Source: Solidesulfovibrio sp.
Lineage (GTDB): Bacteria > Desulfobacterota > Desulfovibrionia > Desulfovibrionales > Desulfovibrionaceae
Direction of reading: 5' to 3'
DNA length: 64,000 nt
Assembly: GCF_038562415.1 (NCBI RefSeq)
Contig: NZ_JBCFBA010000002.1
Coordinates: 206,232-270,231, forward strand
The position numbers and the translations under genes are program-made. Positions within the stretch are counted from its first letter, which is position 1. Every line of letters begins with the position of its first letter. Below, piece after piece: positions 54,427-61,291 of the stretch. Under the pieces are notes generated by a model, which searched no databases, was not told the origin of the DNA, and saw only the letters and a program-made list of their open reading frames with translations.

Positions 54427-55857
54427 TTAGAAGGTGTAGAGGAAGCCGAGGGAGCCCATGAAGGCGTTCTCGGCCTGCTGGGTGAAGCGGTGGCCCCAGA
54501 TGCTGGTCTTGAGCCCCTGCGGCGAGGCGAAACCGGTCTGCATCGTGAGGCTCAATTGTTCGGTGATGGCGTAGCTGTTGTCGAAGTTGACGCCGATGAG
54601 CCATTCGCCCTCGGCCAGGTTGCGGCCCATGGTCACGTATTCGCCGACGCCGCCCGTGGCGACGACGGCCTTTCGCAGGCCGGCCACGCTGTTGGTGCCG
54701 GCGATGACGGCCACGGTCAGCCGGCTTTTGAGGGCCTCGATGAAACTCACGTCGCGAAGGCTGGCCGCCAGGCCCCAGGTGCCGGTCGGGTCCACGCCGA
54801 TGCTGTTGTTGGCGAACTCCTGGTCGCAGTCGAACAGGAACGACGTGCCCGGGCCCCATTTGGGGGTGATGATGGGCAGGCGCTCGCTGCCGTTGCCAAG
54901 GCTCGAATCCTCGCCGCTGGCCACCCAGCCGAAGACGCCGGGCAGCATCCAGTCGAAGCCGGAATAGGTGACGCCGGCGTCGAAGAACCAGCCCCGGCGG
55001 CGGTTGCGCTCGCGGTCGGCCGGGGCGGCGTCGCCGTAGATGCCGTCGAAATAGAACTTGACCGGGTCGGCCGCTTCCACGGTCAGGGCCAGGCCGGCCC
55101 ACCACATGGCGTTCTGGTTGTCCTTGTAGGGGTAGCCGCTCTCGCTTAAGTAGCTCGCGGCCGAGCGCAGGCCGGCGGCGAAGAGGTTTTCGGGATCGGA
55201 CCCCTTGCCGTAGACGCCGAGCAGGCCCCAAGGCGTGGCCGCGAAACCGTCCAGGGTCACGGGCAGGGCCAGCTGGTAGGTGTCGAAGGCGTCGCCGACC
55301 TGGGTGGTGGTCTGCTGGAAGGTCCGGTTGGCGGACAGCAGCCGGGCGTAGGCGGCCTGGACCGAGAGGTTTTCGCCGACGGGAATGTTCAGGTGCAGGG
55401 CGGCGCTCGACTGGTCGCCGTCGTCGGCGGCGAGCACGATGCTGTCGTAGAAGACCTCGGTGTGGGGCACGGACAGGGGTTGGTAGCCGGCCGTGACCTC
55501 GATGTCGGTGCCGGGCCATTTGAATTGCAGGTAGGCCAGGTAGGGTTCGATGGCCACCTGCGGGTTGGCGGCGGTCAGGTAGCCGTGGCCCCAGGCCTCG
55601 TCGTCGATGCGCAGGCCGAGGCGGAACTTGAGGTTCTCGTTGGCGACGAAATCGCTGCGCAGCCGCAGGCGCTGCCAGATGGTCATGCGGTCCTCGGTCT
55701 GGGTGCCGGTCTCGTCCCAGCCGGTGAAGTTGCGGTTGGCGAAAAAGACGCCGTAGACGCGGGCGTCGCCGGCCATTCTGACTTCGGTCGCCGCCGCGGC
55801 CTCGGTGGCGAAGGCGGCCAGAAACAGCAGGGCGGCAAGAAAACGTTTGCCTCGCAT
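54427..55857 (-). CDS. Outer membrane porin of Desulfovibrio type
   Basis: A 476-residue outer-membrane beta-barrel protein with signal peptide (MRGKRFLAALLFLAAFATEAAAA). It has alternating aromatic/polar strands, the family wording RMAGDARVYGVFFANRNFTGWD near the mature start and WQRLRLRSDFVANENLKFRLGLRIDDEAWG, and it ends in a C-terminal aromatic (FLYTF) as needed for barrel insertion. Matches the homotrimeric porin family abundant in Desulfovibrio. The ATG at 55857 has a ggaga site; an in-frame upstream ATG at 55902 would precede the signal peptide with a non-typical extension. The 113-bp upstream gap is unusually AT-rich near 55905-55930, consistent with a strong promoter. Confidence 0.9.
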   Translation of the reverse strand: MRGKRFLAALLFLAAFATEAAAATEVRMAGDARVYGVFFANRNFTGWDETGTQTEDRMTIWQRLRLRSDFVANENLKFRLGLRIDDEAWGHGYLTAANPQVAIEPYLAYLQFKWPGTDIEVTAGYQPLSVPHTEVFYDSIVLAADDGDQSSAALHLNIPVGENLSVQAAYARLLSANRTFQQTTTQVGDAFDTYQLALPVTLDGFAATPWGLLGVYGKGSDPENLFAAGLRSAASYLSESGYPYKDNQNAMWWAGLALTVEAADPVKFYFDGIYGDAAPADRERNRRRGWFFDAGVTYSGFDWMLPGVFGWVASGEDSSLGNGSERLPIITPKWGPGTSFLFDCDQEFANNSIGVDPTGTWGLAASLRDVSFIEALKSRLTVAVIAGTNSVAGLRKAVVATGGVGEYVTMGRNLAEGEWLIGVNFDNSYAITEQLSLTMQTGFASPQGLKTSIWGHRFTQQAENAFMGSLGFLYTF

Positions 55858-55970
55858 AAGGATGTCTCCCTTGGTGTGGACGGTCAGACAAAAGCGTTTC
55901 ATGTAACACTAAAATTTATTTATTATGCTGTCCAGGTGCTCCTTCCTCCATTCGATGGTTTGCGCGCAGG

Positions 55971-58157
55971 CTACCAGATCCGGGCGATCTGGAAGACGGC
56001 CACGGCCACGGCAAAGCCCAGCGCCGTGTTGGCGACCACGGCGAAGGCGGCCCATGTCCAATCCGTCTCCCGGGCCATGACGGCCACGGTGACGAAACAG
56101 GGGGCGTAGAGGATGGTGAAGGCCATCAGCGCCAGGGCGACGGCCGGCGTGAAGCGGGGATCGGCGGCCAGCCGCTCGGACAGGGCCTGGGGCGCCTCGG
56201 GCGAGGCCTCGCCCAGGTCGTAGGCCGTGCCCAGGGTGGAGACCACCACTTCCTTGGCGGCCAGCCCGCCGAAAAGCGCGATGTTGACGCGCCAGTCGAA
56301 GCCGGCCAGACGGCTGAGCCCTTCCAGGGCGACACCCAGGCGCCCGGCCAGGGACCGGCGCAAGGCTTCCTCGGCCTGCCGGTTGTCCAGGGCGCCGAGC
56401 CGGGCATCCAGGGACGCGCGCGCGGCGGCGGCCGCCACGTCGTCCGGCAGAGCCCGGCGTTCGGCCGCCAGGGCGGCGCGGTCGGCCTCGAAATCGGCCA
56501 GGCGCTCGGGCGGCAGCCCCGGGAAGGTCATGGCCGCCCACATGACCACGGAAATGGCCAACACGATGGTGCCGGCCTTCTTGATATACTGCCAGGCCCG
56601 TTCGCCGGTGTGGATCGCAAGGCCGCGCAGGGTGGGCAGGCGGTAGGGCGGCAGTTCCATGAGAAAGGGGGTCGAGTGCCCGGCGATGACCGTGGCGCGC
56701 CAGAGCTTGGCCACGCACAGCGCCGCCGCCCAGGAGGCCACGGTGACGGCGAACATGACCAGGCCCGGATGTTCGGGGAAAAAGGCGGCGATAAGGAGCA
56801 GGTAGACGGGAATTTTCGCGCCGCAGGCCATGAACGGGGCGCTTAAGATGGTGGCCAGGCGCTCCTTGGGGCTGCGCAGGGTCCGGGCGGCCATGACCCC
56901 GGGCACGGCGCAGCCGCCGGGAATGCCGCCGGAAATGATGAAGGGCATGACCGAGGCGCCGTGCAGGCCAAACGCCCGGAACACCCGGTCGAGCATGTAG
57001 GCCATGCGCGCCGTGTAGCCCAGGTCCTCCAGGCAGGAGAGCAGGAAGAACATCACGCAGATAAGCGGCACGAACCCCAGCACCCCGCCCACCCCGGCGA
57101 TGACCCCGGAAACCACCAGCGACCTGAGCAGCCCGTCGGGCAGGGCCGCCCCGGCCGCCTCGCCCAGCCAGGCGAACCCGGCCTCCAGCCAGTCCATGGG
57201 ATAGCGGCTGGCCAGAAAGGTCAGCTGGAACATGCAAAAAAGCACGGCCAGCATGATGACCGGTCCGGCCACGGCGTGGGTGAGCACCCGGTCCACGGCG
57301 TCGGAGAGGGCGATGCGGTCCGGGCTGTCGGCGCGTTGCAGCACGCCCCGGCGCAGCAGGGCGGCGATGAAGCCGTAGCGGTAATCGGAGATGACGGCCT
57401 CGGGATAGGTGTCGCTGGTGTCGCGGATGTGGCGGGCCAGCGCGGCGGCGGCCTGCTCCAGGAACCGCGCCGTGGGCCCGCGCCCGCGGCCCAGGGCCAT
57501 GACGTCCTCGTCGGCCTCCAGGTATTTGAGGGCCAGCCAGCGGGCCGGGAAGCGGTCGGTCAGGAAGCGGTCGGCCTCGATGCGGGCGGCCATGGCCCCG
57601 AGCGCCCGGTCCACGTCCGGGCCGTAGGACAGTTCCAGCGGCCTCCAGTGGCCACGCCGGGACTTGGCGAACTCCAGGGCCTGGCGCACCAGGGCGTCCG
57701 TGCCCTCGCCCAGCCGGGCCACGGTTTCGACCACGGGCACCCCGAGCAGGCGGGCGAGCAGGCCCGCGTCCAGCTTGCAGCCACGGCGGCGGACCTCGTC
57801 CATCATGTTGAGCGCCAGGACCACGGGCGCGCCCAGTTCCAGCAACTGCACCGTCAGGTACAGCCCCCGCTCCAGCGTCCCGGCGTCCAGGACGTCGATG
57901 ACGCAGCTGGGCTTTTCCTCGACGAGGAAGCTTCGGGCGGCCCGTTCGTCGGCGGAGTAGGCGGTCAGCGAGTACATGCCCGGCAGGTCGACCAGGATCA
58001 TGTCGCGGCCGGCGGCGCGCAGGCGGCCCTCGCGTTTTTCCACGGTGACGCCGGGGTAGTTGCCCACGTGCTGGCGCGCGCCGGTGAGGCTGTTGAAAAG
58101 TGTCGTCTTGCCGCTGTTCGGGTTGCCGGCCAGGGCGAAGGTCAGGGTTGGCGACAT
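55971..58157 (-). CDS. feoB: Ferrous iron transporter FeoB
   Basis: A 728-residue inner-membrane transporter. The N-terminal GTPase has G1 GNPNSGKTTLFN, G3 VDLPGMYSL and G4 LNMMDE, followed by the helical GDI-like part. Two Gate motifs and core helices follow (ISGGIPGGCAVPGVMAARTL, GLAAKEVVVSTLGTAYDLGE). It imports Fe(II). No feoA is adjacent, which is unusual but not rare. It lies 10 bp after a GGDEF gene and is the third gene behind a strong Fur-box match. The ATG at 58157 begins directly at the G domain. Confidence 0.96.
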   Translation of the reverse strand: MSPTLTFALAGNPNSGKTTLFNSLTGARQHVGNYPGVTVEKREGRLRAAGRDMILVDLPGMYSLTAYSADERAARSFLVEEKPSCVIDVLDAGTLERGLYLTVQLLELGAPVVLALNMMDEVRRRGCKLDAGLLARLLGVPVVETVARLGEGTDALVRQALEFAKSRRGHWRPLELSYGPDVDRALGAMAARIEADRFLTDRFPARWLALKYLEADEDVMALGRGRGPTARFLEQAAAALARHIRDTSDTYPEAVISDYRYGFIAALLRRGVLQRADSPDRIALSDAVDRVLTHAVAGPVIMLAVLFCMFQLTFLASRYPMDWLEAGFAWLGEAAGAALPDGLLRSLVVSGVIAGVGGVLGFVPLICVMFFLLSCLEDLGYTARMAYMLDRVFRAFGLHGASVMPFIISGGIPGGCAVPGVMAARTLRSPKERLATILSAPFMACGAKIPVYLLLIAAFFPEHPGLVMFAVTVASWAAALCVAKLWRATVIAGHSTPFLMELPPYRLPTLRGLAIHTGERAWQYIKKAGTIVLAISVVMWAAMTFPGLPPERLADFEADRAALAAERRALPDDVAAAAARASLDARLGALDNRQAEEALRRSLAGRLGVALEGLSRLAGFDWRVNIALFGGLAAKEVVVSTLGTAYDLGEASPEAPQALSERLAADPRFTPAVALALMAFTILYAPCFVTVAVMARETDWTWAAFAVVANTALGFAVAVAVFQIARIW

Positions 58158-58167
58158 GGGGCGGTCC

Positions 58168-59235
58168 TTAGCAGCGGTTACCGGCCTGGGCGCGCCGCGC
58201 CCTGCCGGAGGGGGGGACGTCCTGGGGGTCGGCGGCCACGCGGTCGCCGCCGCCGGCCTTGGCCGCATACAGCGCGGCGTCGCAACGCGCGGTGAGGGAC
58301 GCGGCGTAGGGCTTGGCGTCGCGGGCCGGGTCGAGCCTGGCCAGGCCGAGGCTGGCCGTGGTGCCGTGGGCGTTGGCCGCCGCGAAGCGGGCCCGGATGC
58401 GTTCGGCCACGGACAGGGCCGCCTCCGCCGGCAGGCGGGTGAGGACGACGGCGAATTCGTCGCCGCCGAGCCGGAAGGGCATGTCCAGGCCGTCGCGGGT
58501 GGAGTCGAGGAGCGCGCGGCCCATGGCGGCCAGGACGGCGTCCCCGGCCGGATGGCCGAACCGGTCGTTTACGCCCTTGAAGGCGTCGCAATCGATGAGC
58601 GCCAGCCACAGCGGATGGCCGGAGGCGGCGGCTTCGGCGGCAAGCTCCGGCAGGGCCTCGTCGAAGCGGCGGCGGTTGAAAAGGCCGGTGAGGGCGTCGG
58701 AGCGCGAGAGGTCGGCGAAATGGCGCTCGCGGCGCTTGGTCTCGTCGAGAAGGGCACCCAGCCACGTTTCGCGGGTCTCCACGCCGTGGGCCAGCCAGTT
58801 GAGGTCGCGCATCAGGCGCAGCACCTCGTGCTCGTCGTCGCCCTGGGCGGGCAGGGGCAGACGGCGGTGGTATTCGCCCCGGCGAAGCCCGGCGCAAAAG
58901 CGGTTGATGGCGGCGATGTCGCCCAGGACCACGAACCGGGCCGCCAGCCGGGACAGGGGCAGGACCAGGACCAGGGAGGCCGCCAGCCAAAGCCCCAGCA
59001 TCCGGCCCGGCGAGGCGATGAGGCCCGTTTCCAGGCAGTACAGCCCGATGCCCGGCGGCAGGGCGAAAACGAGCAACAGCACCAGGCGCATGCGGGTCGT
59101 GACGCCGAATACGGCGAGGCGGTCCGCCTTGCCGGCCTCCCGGGGCCGGGTTTCGGCGGCCGCGCATTCCTTGTCCGTGGCCGAGGCGGTGCTTGTGGTG
59201 GCAAACATGGGACCGTCCTTCGTCTTTTGCGTCAT
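58168..59235 (-). CDS. Membrane GGDEF diguanylate cyclase
   Basis: A 355-residue protein with two membrane helices (about 49-66 and 78-97), a HAMP-like linker (about 98-155) and a GGDEF domain (about 172-340) with intact GGDEF at 257-261 and the LIDCDAFKGVNDRFGHPAGD substrate block. The inhibitory RxxD site is absent (DGLD at that position), so product feedback may be lacking. The start at 59235 overlaps the HD-GYP stop (ATGA); an ATG at 59208 with an aagga site is an alternative. Makes c-di-GMP, opposite to its partner gene. Confidence 0.9.
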   Translation of the reverse strand: MTQKTKDGPMFATTSTASATDKECAAAETRPREAGKADRLAVFGVTTRMRLVLLLVFALPPGIGLYCLETGLIASPGRMLGLWLAASLVLVLPLSRLAARFVVLGDIAAINRFCAGLRRGEYHRRLPLPAQGDDEHEVLRLMRDLNWLAHGVETRETWLGALLDETKRRERHFADLSRSDALTGLFNRRRFDEALPELAAEAAASGHPLWLALIDCDAFKGVNDRFGHPAGDAVLAAMGRALLDSTRDGLDMPFRLGGDEFAVVLTRLPAEAALSVAERIRARFAAANAHGTTASLGLARLDPARDAKPYAASLTARCDAALYAAKAGGGDRVAADPQDVPPSGRARRAQAGNRC

Positions 59236-59939
59236 GAAAAAGACGGGCTTCGTTCGGGGCCGGCGTCGCGCAACGTCGTGGCCAGGAGGCGCAGCCGGTC
59301 TTCATGGGCCAGGAAAACCGCGACCACGGCCGGATCGAACTGGCTGCCGGCGCAGGCGACGATTTCGCGCCGGGCTGCCTCGAAATCCATGGCCGGCCGG
59401 TAGGGGCGGCGCTGGAGCATGGCCGACAGGCTGTCGGCCACGGCGATGATGCGCGCCCCCAGCGGGATGGCCGTCCCGGCCAGGCCGTTCGGGTAGCCCT
59501 TGCCGTCGAAGCGTTCGTGGTGGGCCCGCACCATGGCCACCACGCCCATGGCCGACAGGCAGGACAGCGGGGCCAGGATGTCGGCGCCGGTTGCCGGGTG
59601 GGACTGCATGCATCGCCATTCCTCGGGAGTGAGCCGGCCGGGCTTGCCGAGCACGGCATCGGGCACGCCGATCTTGCCGATGTCGTGGAGGTGGCCGGCC
59701 ACGTGCACGGCCTGGACGTGCGCCGGGGGCAGGCGCAAGCCGGCGGCCAGCACCTTGGCCACCTCCGCCACCTCCTCGGAGTGGGCCATGGTGTGGCTGT
59801 CCTTGGCGTCGATGGCCCGGCCCAGGGCGGCGGCCAGTTCGTGCACCTGGGCGAGGAGGGTGTGGTGACCGTCCGTGGCGGCGGAAAAGACAGCGGCCTG
59901 GAGCGCGCTTTCGGGAAAGGGAATTTTGAGCACGGACAT
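59232..59939 (-). CDS. HD-GYP c-di-GMP phosphodiesterase
   Basis: A 235-residue soluble HD-GYP domain: H53, the H85-D86 pair in GHLHDIGKIGVPD, H114, H140-H141 and D145 in HHERFDGKGYPNGL, so the metal site and GYP loop are complete. It degrades c-di-GMP to GMP or pGpG. The first gene of an operon with a diguanylate cyclase and feoB. The ATG at 59939 is chosen; the frame stays open upstream to 60170 but that portion has no conserved features. Confidence 0.9.
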   Translation of the reverse strand: MSVLKIPFPESALQAAVFSAATDGHHTLLAQVHELAAALGRAIDAKDSHTMAHSEEVAEVAKVLAAGLRLPPAHVQAVHVAGHLHDIGKIGVPDAVLGKPGRLTPEEWRCMQSHPATGADILAPLSCLSAMGVVAMVRAHHERFDGKGYPNGLAGTAIPLGARIIAVADSLSAMLQRRPYRPAMDFEAARREIVACAGSQFDPAVVAVFLAHEDRLRLLATTLRDAGPERSPSFS

Positions 59940-60160
59940 CTCGCAAGGTTCACGCGTCAAGGCCGGCCATGGGATCCCGGCCAAGCGGGATCCGGGCCTC
60001 GCCATCGCGGGCCGGCCGCCGGTGACGGCGGGGTTATTCGGTTCGGGTCGTCTGAGCGCACGCATGCAAGGCCAATTTCCGGTTGCGGACGGAGGGATCC
60101 CGTCGGTTTCGCGTCGCCTGGCGGCACCATGCCGTGGCGGACGCAGTCGTTGTGCGCTAC

Positions 60161-60177
60161 TTGATAACAATTGTCAA
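60161..60177. promoter_or_regulatory. Fur box over the feoB operon promoter
   Basis: TTGATAACAATTGTCAA contains TGATAAC-A-ATTGTCA (60162-60176), matching the 7-1-7 Fur consensus TGATAAT-N-ATTATCA at 12 of 14 arm positions. Read on the minus strand it provides a perfect -35 TTGACA (60171-60176), so bound Fur would block RNA polymerase. An outer 7-bp inverted repeat CTTGATA/TATCAAG (60160-60166 / 60178-60184) surrounds it. It lies about 220 bp before the HD-GYP start and downstream of the cydB terminator; no clear -10 is seen. Confidence 0.7.
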
Positions 60178-60205
60178 TATCAAGAACGGGGTGACGGGCA
60201 AAACG

Positions 60206-60239
60206 AAGGCCGCCGACGGGCGAACCCGTCGGCGGCCTT
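60206..60239 (-). terminator. Rho-independent terminator of cydAB
   Basis: A perfect 15-bp stem (60206-60220 / 60225-60239) with a four-base loop, beginning 24 bp after the cydB stop, followed on the minus strand by cgtttt. A classic intrinsic terminator. Confidence 0.9.
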
Positions 60240-60262
60240 GGCACGGTCGTAACCGGATGGGG

Positions 60263-61291
60263 CTAGTAGGCCTCGTCGTAATCCAGGTCGTCCTGGGTCA
60301 CCGGATGGCGGAAGGTGTGGAAGGCCCAGAACTGGTAGATGATGACGATGGGCACGAAGACGAGGGCCACGCCGAGCATGATGGACAGGGTCAGCGGCGT
60401 GGAGGCGGAGTTCTCGATGGTCATGGAATAGGCCGGGTTGAGGCTCGACGGCAACAGGGCCGGGAAGATGCCGACCACGCCGAACAGGGCGGCGCCGCCG
60501 ATGAGCAGGGCCGAGCCGACCCAGGCGGCCAGGGCGCGGCCGGCGCGGCGGTACTTGCAGGTGAGTAGCAGTCCGGCCACGGGCACGAGCAGGATGGCGA
60601 AAAGGATCGGATGAACCAGGTAGTTGGTGAAAAGCGGCGTCATGCCCCAGGACATGGCCAAAAACAGCACCACCAGCGCGGCCACCACCGGCCACAGCTT
60701 GCCGGCCAGGCCCATGGCCCGGTCGCGCAGGTCGCCCTCGGACTTGAACGCCAGCCACAGCGCGCCGTGATGGGCGAAAAGAGCCACGAAGAGCAGGCCC
60801 CCGGCCAGGCCGTAGGGGTTGAGCAGGGTGAGGAGGTTGCCCTGGAGGATGCCGTCCTGGTCGATGGGCACGCCCTTGAAGATGTTGGCGAAGGCAACGC
60901 CCAGCAGCAGGGCCGGCAAAAAGCTGCCCAGGAAGTTGCAGGTGTCCCACAGCTTGCGCCAGCCGGCGCTGTCGACCTTGGAGCGGAATTCCAGGGTGAC
61001 GCCGCGCAGGATCAGCGAGAAAAGCAGGAGCATCAGCGGCGTATAGAGGGAGGAGAACATGACGGCGTAGGTTTTGGGGAAGGCGGCGAAGGTCACGCCG
61101 CCGGCCGTGATGAGCCAGACTTCGTTGCCGTCCCAGAAGGGCCCCATGGCGTTGTACATGATGCGGGTGTCGGTGTCGCTTTTGGAGACGACGGGACGGA
61201 TCATGCCGATGCCGAAGTCGAATCCGTCCAGGACGAAATAGATCGCCCAGAGTACTCCCCAAAGGATAAACCAGGTGGTTCCGAGATCCAT
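60263..61291 (-). CDS. cydB: Cytochrome bd oxidase subunit II
   Basis: A 342-residue integral membrane protein with about eight or nine helices; begins MDLGTTWFILWGVLWAIYFVLDGFDFGIGM and contains the YNAMGPFWDGNEVWLITAGG block (about 46-65) of CydB. Forms the quinol-oxidising oxygen reductase with CydA. The ATG at 61291 has aaggag at proper spacing; the upstream ATG (61297) is too close to it. Ends with a terminator. Confidence 0.95.
   Translation of the reverse strand: MDLGTTWFILWGVLWAIYFVLDGFDFGIGMIRPVVSKSDTDTRIMYNAMGPFWDGNEVWLITAGGVTFAAFPKTYAVMFSSLYTPLMLLLFSLILRGVTLEFRSKVDSAGWRKLWDTCNFLGSFLPALLLGVAFANIFKGVPIDQDGILQGNLLTLLNPYGLAGGLLFVALFAHHGALWLAFKSEGDLRDRAMGLAGKLWPVVAALVVLFLAMSWGMTPLFTNYLVHPILFAILLVPVAGLLLTCKYRRAGRALAAWVGSALLIGGAALFGVVGIFPALLPSSLNPAYSMTIENSASTPLTLSIMLGVALVFVPIVIIYQFWAFHTFRHPVTQDDLDYDEAY

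Follow-up and report, generated by a model that had tools for sequence, protein, structure and literature searches.

The best reading of an HD-GYP gene, a GGDEF gene and feoB in this Solidesulfovibrio genome is that they form a joint operon predicted to be repressed by Fur, to which we assign a probability of about 0.75. The sequence itself holds the box, the gene order, the catalytic motifs and their conservation in relatives, and from these we infer binding of Fur and the existence of a single transcript. Below, the window denotes the whole stretch of 64,000 nucleotides that was analyzed.

Gene order and operon structure

All genes of the locus lie on the minus strand. The features that matter here are the following.

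62675-61374, minus strand: cydA, named from sequence
61297-60263, minus strand: cydB, named from sequence
60206..60239, minus strand: intrinsic terminator hairpin after cydB, a 15-bp stem followed by CGUUUUG
60167..60183, no strand assigned: second Fur-type site of 13.9 bits, overlapping the main box with a 6-bp shift
60161..60177, no strand assigned (read on the plus strand): main Fur box TTGATAACAATTGTCAA, a 17-bp Fur-type palindrome
60172..60177, minus strand: TTGACA, candidate -35 element, with a possible -10 element CACAAC at 60154-60149
59939-59232, minus strand: stand-alone HD-GYP protein of 235 aa, Pfam HD_5 at 7.3e-39, start codon inferred
59235-58168, minus strand: GGDEF diguanylate cyclase of 355 aa, Pfam GGDEF at 4.3e-32 as its sole Pfam domain
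58157-55971, minus strand: FeoB ferrous iron transporter of 728 aa, FeoB_N at 3.5e-63, TIGR00437 at 508 bits, above cut-off
54427..55902, minus strand: porin-like protein, 68 bp past feoB, termed a porin from the look of its sequence only

As the original prediction had it, the HD-GYP and GGDEF genes are joined by an ATGA overlap and the GGDEF gene and feoB by a gap of 10 bp, and the Pfam assignments agree with the three gene identities. With a common strand, short gaps and no strong internal terminator, the three genes have the layout of a single operon, and it is from this spacing that co-transcription of feoB with the c-di-GMP genes is predicted. A terminator scan returned weak stems of 5-6 pairs within the HD-GYP and feoB genes, nine in 5.9 kb where 3.6 were expected, and an Rfam search of 55900-60400 gave no match up to an E value of 1. 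The transporter contains the G domain as well as the Gate and FeoB_C domains. The reported lack of feoA holds for the locus but not for the genome, where FeoA is matched six times, once next to a second feoB.

On the upstream side the hairpin after cydB separates cydAB from the HD-GYP/GGDEF/feoB operon. Its folding energy of -34.9 kcal/mol (z -5.2) was attained by none of 200 shuffled sequences. The composite box (60183-60161) is found approximately 20 bp past this terminator and is followed by a leader of about 220 nt and then the HD-GYP gene. On the downstream side, a porin-like protein with 79-89% identity follows feoB in five of the six congeners that have the cyclase-feoB locus, so that its gene is a possible last member of the operon or a conserved neighbor. 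The protein itself may be an outer-membrane iron channel.

The Fur box and its promoter

For scoring we used a matrix of 20 published Desulfovibrio Fur sites (Rodionov 2004), which themselves range from 17.7 to 32.7 bits and of which four are the published gdp/hdd sites. On this scale the main box reaches 23.6 bits, inside the range of the training sites and the top score of the 64 kb; the next independent site has 11.4 bits, and the highest value in 40 simulated windows was 20.0 bits. The match of 12 in 14 positions between TTGATAACAATTGTCAA and TGATAATNATTATCA, found at 60162-60176, is real: with up to two mismatches TGATAATNATTATCA occurs a single time in the window, where 0.01 occurrences are expected from 100 dinucleotide shuffles. 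A looser pattern with up to three mismatches again matched only the place of the main box, on both strands, against 0.58 matches expected, and two or more matches arose in 18 of 100 shuffles. A 17-bp palindrome of the WTGAAAATNATTTTCAW type, by which members of a Fur regulon are recognized, is thus present upstream of the genes. In an alignment of the window with five congeners, the composite box holds 16 of the 21 invariant columns. Pairs of sites offset by 6 bp, as seen here, are described as distinctive of Desulfovibrio in the available text of Rodionov 2004 (PMC545781).

The TTGACA that was said to overlap the box is present at 60177-60172 on the minus strand and is part of the Fur palindrome, but the corresponding -10 element of the window, CACAAC, is weak (three of six positions, at a 17-nt spacer), and a consensus promoter scan found no promoter. 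At the place of the -10 element three of the five aligned congeners carry TAAAAA, TAAACC or TAAGAC, at equal spacing.

Conservation of the box in related genomes

A search with the N-terminal part of the cyclase in 199 genomes of the family gave 78 rows of matches, in 72 of the genomes. These could not all be taken as cyclases, since the query also matches SpoIIE-type phosphatases of Sia-like clusters, and a true cyclase was defined as the N-terminal part plus GGDEF in one reading frame. By this definition the 78 rows comprise 39 true cyclases, 20 Sia phosphatases and 19 unfetched rows that were left unclassified, and a count of feoB linkage in 42 of 72 genomes, which had mixed the two protein classes, was dropped and redone over the 39. 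The true cyclase is confirmed in 39 genomes from 11 genera, the window included.

In 32 of these 39 genomes, again with the window, a site of at least 20 bits precedes the HD-GYP or the GGDEF gene, a figure composed of the window, 22 of 29 loci and 9 of 9 further ones that were judged by a slightly different rule. For the 29 loci the rule for the upstream gene permitted an HD-GYP/GGDEF overlap and start codons were rough; 20 of them have the box at p <=0.01 and 22 at 20 bits or more, a score also reached by 17 of the 613 remaining tiles in these loci. In the g8 genomes, which are AT-rich, tiles elsewhere at times score equally high. The proposal that the same order and box should recur in related genomes is borne out by these counts.

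Variations on the arrangement were found in several groups. In the g38 loci the box is situated just inside the called HD-GYP start, and in five more genomes (L057, L058, L062, L063 and L064) the site lies further upstream, before an inserted stretch. In the two congeners G167 and G080 (L057:7304-9953 and L058:7250-9917) the box and the HD-GYP gene are separated by genes for a P-type ATPase and for an HMA_2-type protein. Distant relatives of this ATPase were observed in the genome of the window itself, on contig C28, where a further Fur-type box lies upstream of them. The g41 genomes have approximately 1.1-1.2 kb between box and genes, which in L063 holds a TPR-like frame that stays below the Pfam cut-off. 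Neither of the two g11 genomes has a box before the cyclase, and in one of them, L076, the cyclase is located downstream of a feoA-feoB set that carries a 20.4-bit site. What looked like a fusion of GGDEF and FeoB in L058 proved to be a script artefact. A search of genome_contigs gave six loci with distant GGDEF proteins only.

The box was also found with HD-GYP genes that do not adjoin the cyclase. Among 16 genomes searched for an ortholog of the HD-GYP protein, 13 had a clear one, and in 12 of these 13 the 600 bp ahead of the match contain a site of at least 20 bits; the sole exception, L162, is about 4 kb from its cyclase. None of 17 HD-GYP paralogs has such a site, a weak control as their upstream regions are mostly coding.

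Some relatives have additional boxes closer to the transporter. Between the GGDEF gene and feoB the congeners L058 and L059 carry a box of lower score (17.9 and 19.5 bits), and in the three g41 genomes feoA is preceded by a box of its own. Such boxes are what would be expected if Fur governed both c-di-GMP genes while feoB was transcribed from a promoter of its own, the apparent operon being mere neighborhood. In the window, however, the gap spans 10 bp and the 15 top-scoring sites all lie away from it, and even with a promoter for feoB both units would be under Fur. We consider separate transcription of feoB rather unlikely and favor the joint operon.

The HD-GYP protein

The HD-GYP protein was compared with PmGH, a tri-iron HD-GYP phosphodiesterase, as far as that enzyme is described in the available part of PMC4159591. 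Of its eight metal ligands seven are kept in all 16 sequences analyzed (H53, H85, D86, H114, H140, H141 and D169 in the window), and the HD and HH motifs, equivalents of the D183/K225 pair and the GYP at positions 148-150 are likewise retained in 16 of 16, so that the HD...HHExxDGxGYP motif is present together with metal ligands. The differences concern the eighth ligand E185, which is H49 in the window and H, C, R or S among the 16 sequences, D308, which is S172 in all 16 and leaves the protein without an equivalent Asp, and K317, which is R181. In place of the tri-iron signature E/D-T-G the window reads H49-T-M. The protein probably has a two-metal center, unlike PmGH, and Pfam reports no GAF domain. 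According to the same text (PMC4159591) the E185A variant of PmGH showed lower activity and the D308A variant behaved like loss of a metal ligand, and the outer metal sites accept other metals under iron shortage.

Given that H49 replaces E185 and S172 replaces D308, the sequence makes it likely, but not certain, that the protein is a c-di-GMP phosphodiesterase. The antagonistic pair of the original prediction presumes an active HD-GYP protein, in which two positions important in PmGH differ. With one of them changed in all 16 sequences, the protein might instead be weak or inactive and serve as a c-di-GMP receptor or cyclase partner in an operon that is still under Fur, and low iron would then raise c-di-GMP. 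A precedent is DvhD of Desulfovibrio, whose degenerate HD-GYP domain is described as a c-di-GMP receptor in the available text of PMC13090378; the present protein differs from DvhD in that its HD and HH motifs are conserved throughout, as are seven metal ligands, GYP and the D183/K225 pair. We regard the receptor role as unlikely and retain the phosphodiesterase as the preferred assignment.

Fur sites and Fur proteins in the same genome

Genome-wide, a related box pattern with up to one mismatch gave 17 sites, the operon box included, versus two in the reversed control. Boxes of the same type stand ahead of feoA-feoB2, of a feoA pair and of a flavodoxin-like gene. In the second feo locus (L088:5254-9309, G000:C9), feoA and feoB2 follow a Fur-type box and are themselves followed by a gene for a PAS-HD-GYP protein, which gives both feoB loci of the genome an HD-GYP neighbor. 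At L107:1326-1556 (G000:C13) a small Cys-rich membrane protein has a frame that overlaps a Fur-type site; the protein resembles the FeoB-associated Cys-rich proteins.

Boxes of different Fur-family regulators, PerR and Zur types among them, can be alike, and the genome has four Fur-family matches, the best of which, at 127 bits, falls below the NCBIfam equivalog cut-offs; the protein encoded at G000:C3:40438 is taken as the candidate Fur. A regulator of the PerR or Zur type could in principle bind the box, in which case the signal would be peroxide or zinc, but like sites precede feoAB and the flavodoxin-like gene and the locus itself is linked to feoB. Iron-responsive Fur is the far better candidate, and regulation by one of the other types is improbable.

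The diguanylate cyclase

In the cyclase the GGDEF motif (G257-F261) as well as D215, N223 and D232 are identical in 30 of 30 sequences. With GG(D/E)EF and the substrate and metal residues in place, the protein is predicted to be an active diguanylate cyclase. The canonical inhibitory site, an RxxD placed five residues ahead of GGDEF, is lacking, as had been noted from the window alone, and at that place an RxxxD (R247, D251) is found in 29 of the 30 aligned sequences; one ortholog, L061, keeps RxxD. The RxxD site is not required for cyclase activity.

An AlphaFold model of the cyclase (mean pLDDT 85, pTM 0.61) predicts a pair of long N-terminal helices with a link of about six residues and the GGDEF domain after them. 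The helices probably form a membrane hairpin that runs into HAMP-like helices, and Pfam detected no HAMP domain in the cyclase. With only about six residues between the long helices, the model suggests a cyclase devoid of a periplasmic sensor domain. A Foldseek search with the model returned GGDEF-domain proteins exclusively among the best 50 matches listed. NCBIfam NF007423 places residues 84-326 close to the DgcN/YfiN-type cyclases, but the match of 114 bits is far under the cut-off of 325, and the periplasmic sensor domain of that type is absent from the model.

GGDEF enzymes that make cGAMP exist in related groups, and the best PDB sequence match of the HD-GYP protein is 5z7c, a cGAMP phosphodiesterase, so that the pair might handle 3'3'-cGAMP rather than c-di-GMP. 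However, cGAMP makers alter the Asp that contacts the second guanine, and here the Asn and Asp concerned (N223 and D232) are unchanged in all 30 sequences. A role in cGAMP turnover is accordingly very improbable, and c-di-GMP is taken as the product in what follows.

Linkage to feoB and wider distribution

In 25 of the 39 genomes (8 of 11 genera) the cyclase gene is found within 10 kb of feoB, in 23 of these at less than 1.4 kb, and relative to feoB it is upstream and co-oriented in 10 cases, divergent in 13 and downstream in 2. Other GGDEF genes come within 10 kb of feoB only twice among the matches listed (150 of 241 for PF00990, in seven genomes). That a constitutive c-di-GMP pair stands beside feoB by chance is very improbable: the cyclase is indeed away from feoB in 14 of 39 genomes, but the linkage in the other 25 far exceeds that of the other GGDEF genes listed, and boxes are retained in g38, g27 and g10, which have lost the linkage.

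A search at class rank, in 297 genomes, found the cyclase in 13 genomes of other families, all within the same order, and in all 13 it adjoins an HD-GYP gene. In L154 and L155 cyclase, HD-GYP, feoA and feoB form one run on the same strand, the cyclase match of L155 being weak (27%). A box of 20 bits is found in 4 of the 13 loci, which indicates that the enzyme pair is distributed more widely than its control by Fur.

The Sia-like clusters that appeared in the family search (L121:3641-7440, L123:3637-6645, L119:8977-12329, L132, L133, L136, L137, L111 and others) consist of PAS-GGDEF, SpoIIE phosphatase, DUF6272 and SiaC, with domains checked in L121, and are often situated near a long FeoB of about 840 aa. 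In 13 of the 20 fetched loci a Fur-type site of at least 20 bits is present within some 600 bp upstream of the siaD/siaA match. Like the operon of the window, these SiaABCD clusters are a c-di-GMP module that in relatives is often near feoB and behind Fur-type sites; unlike it, they are built from other proteins, SpoIIE phosphatase, DUF6272, SiaC and PAS-GGDEF. They are a second predicted link between Fur and c-di-GMP.

Proposed mechanism

With sufficient iron, Fur-Fe(II) would occupy the composite box at 60161-60183, cover the candidate -35 element and block transcription. In iron shortage the box would be freed and the HD-GYP protein, the cyclase and FeoB made together, the first two by translational coupling, so that the enzyme pair would set c-di-GMP while FeoB refills the iron pool. 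A feedback may be envisaged on top of this: an HD-GYP protein with an iron center would be poorly active when iron is short, the cyclase would dominate and c-di-GMP would rise, until FeoB restores iron; with its metal center filled, the phosphodiesterase would lower c-di-GMP, and Fur would shut the operon down. This is the feedback step that we prefer, but the activity of the HD-GYP protein, the direction of the change in c-di-GMP and gating by iron are put forward tentatively and with far less confidence than the operon. Just as speculative is the extension to a dedicated module throughout the order, in which a sensorless membrane cyclase, perhaps coupled to FeoB, and an iron-reading phosphodiesterase would both be under Fur. 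If such a module existed, c-di-GMP would report cytoplasmic iron and would be reset once FeoB had done its work.

Relation to earlier work and biological meaning

In many bacteria the supply of iron is linked to the formation of biofilms. A study of a D. vulgaris fur mutant was reportedly published in 2007. Predicted Fur boxes before gdp (GGDEF) and hdd (HD-domain) genes were described for two Desulfovibrio species by Rodionov et al. 2004 (PMC545781). As in the present operon, GGDEF and HD-domain genes are placed behind Fur boxes that often occur as overlapping pairs with a 6-bp shift; unlike here, the available text concerns single genes, without feoB and with no c-di-GMP role stated, and the comparison is one of gene type. 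The D. vulgaris gdp box was searched in 288 genomes and was not found. In Vibrio cholerae, Fur is reported to exert direct control over the c-di-GMP genes cdgD and vieSAB (PMC7641913), a regulation of the same kind, but the available text describes opposite signs, calls the effect iron-independent and leaves linkage to Feo unstated. As a kind of regulation, the direct link between iron and c-di-GMP that was originally proposed has precedents, predicted in Desulfovibrio (PMC545781) and reported for V. cholerae (PMC7641913).

Our literature searches retrieved no report of an HD-GYP/GGDEF/feoB operon, and none appears in the accessible portions of PMC8846402, PMC8586430 and PMC13090378. The one paper retrieved for feoB, HD-GYP, GGDEF and Fur together deals with Zetaproteobacteria stalks, and feoB of D. 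vulgaris is given as needed for biofilm integrity at high iron, in work cited by a text-mining paper. As far as these searches reach, the combination of the c-di-GMP genes with feoB in one gene set, its wide occurrence and the tie to Feo are new, the idea itself being partly known.

A single promoter would govern iron import together with the turnover of c-di-GMP, the latter through a retained pair of cyclase and HD-GYP protein. The locus is a compact, testable circuit that names a cyclase family tied to Feo, and it suggests that iron supply sets c-di-GMP, a signal often tied to biofilm life, in apparent sulfate reducers, which are relevant to corrosion through the biofilms they form on steel.
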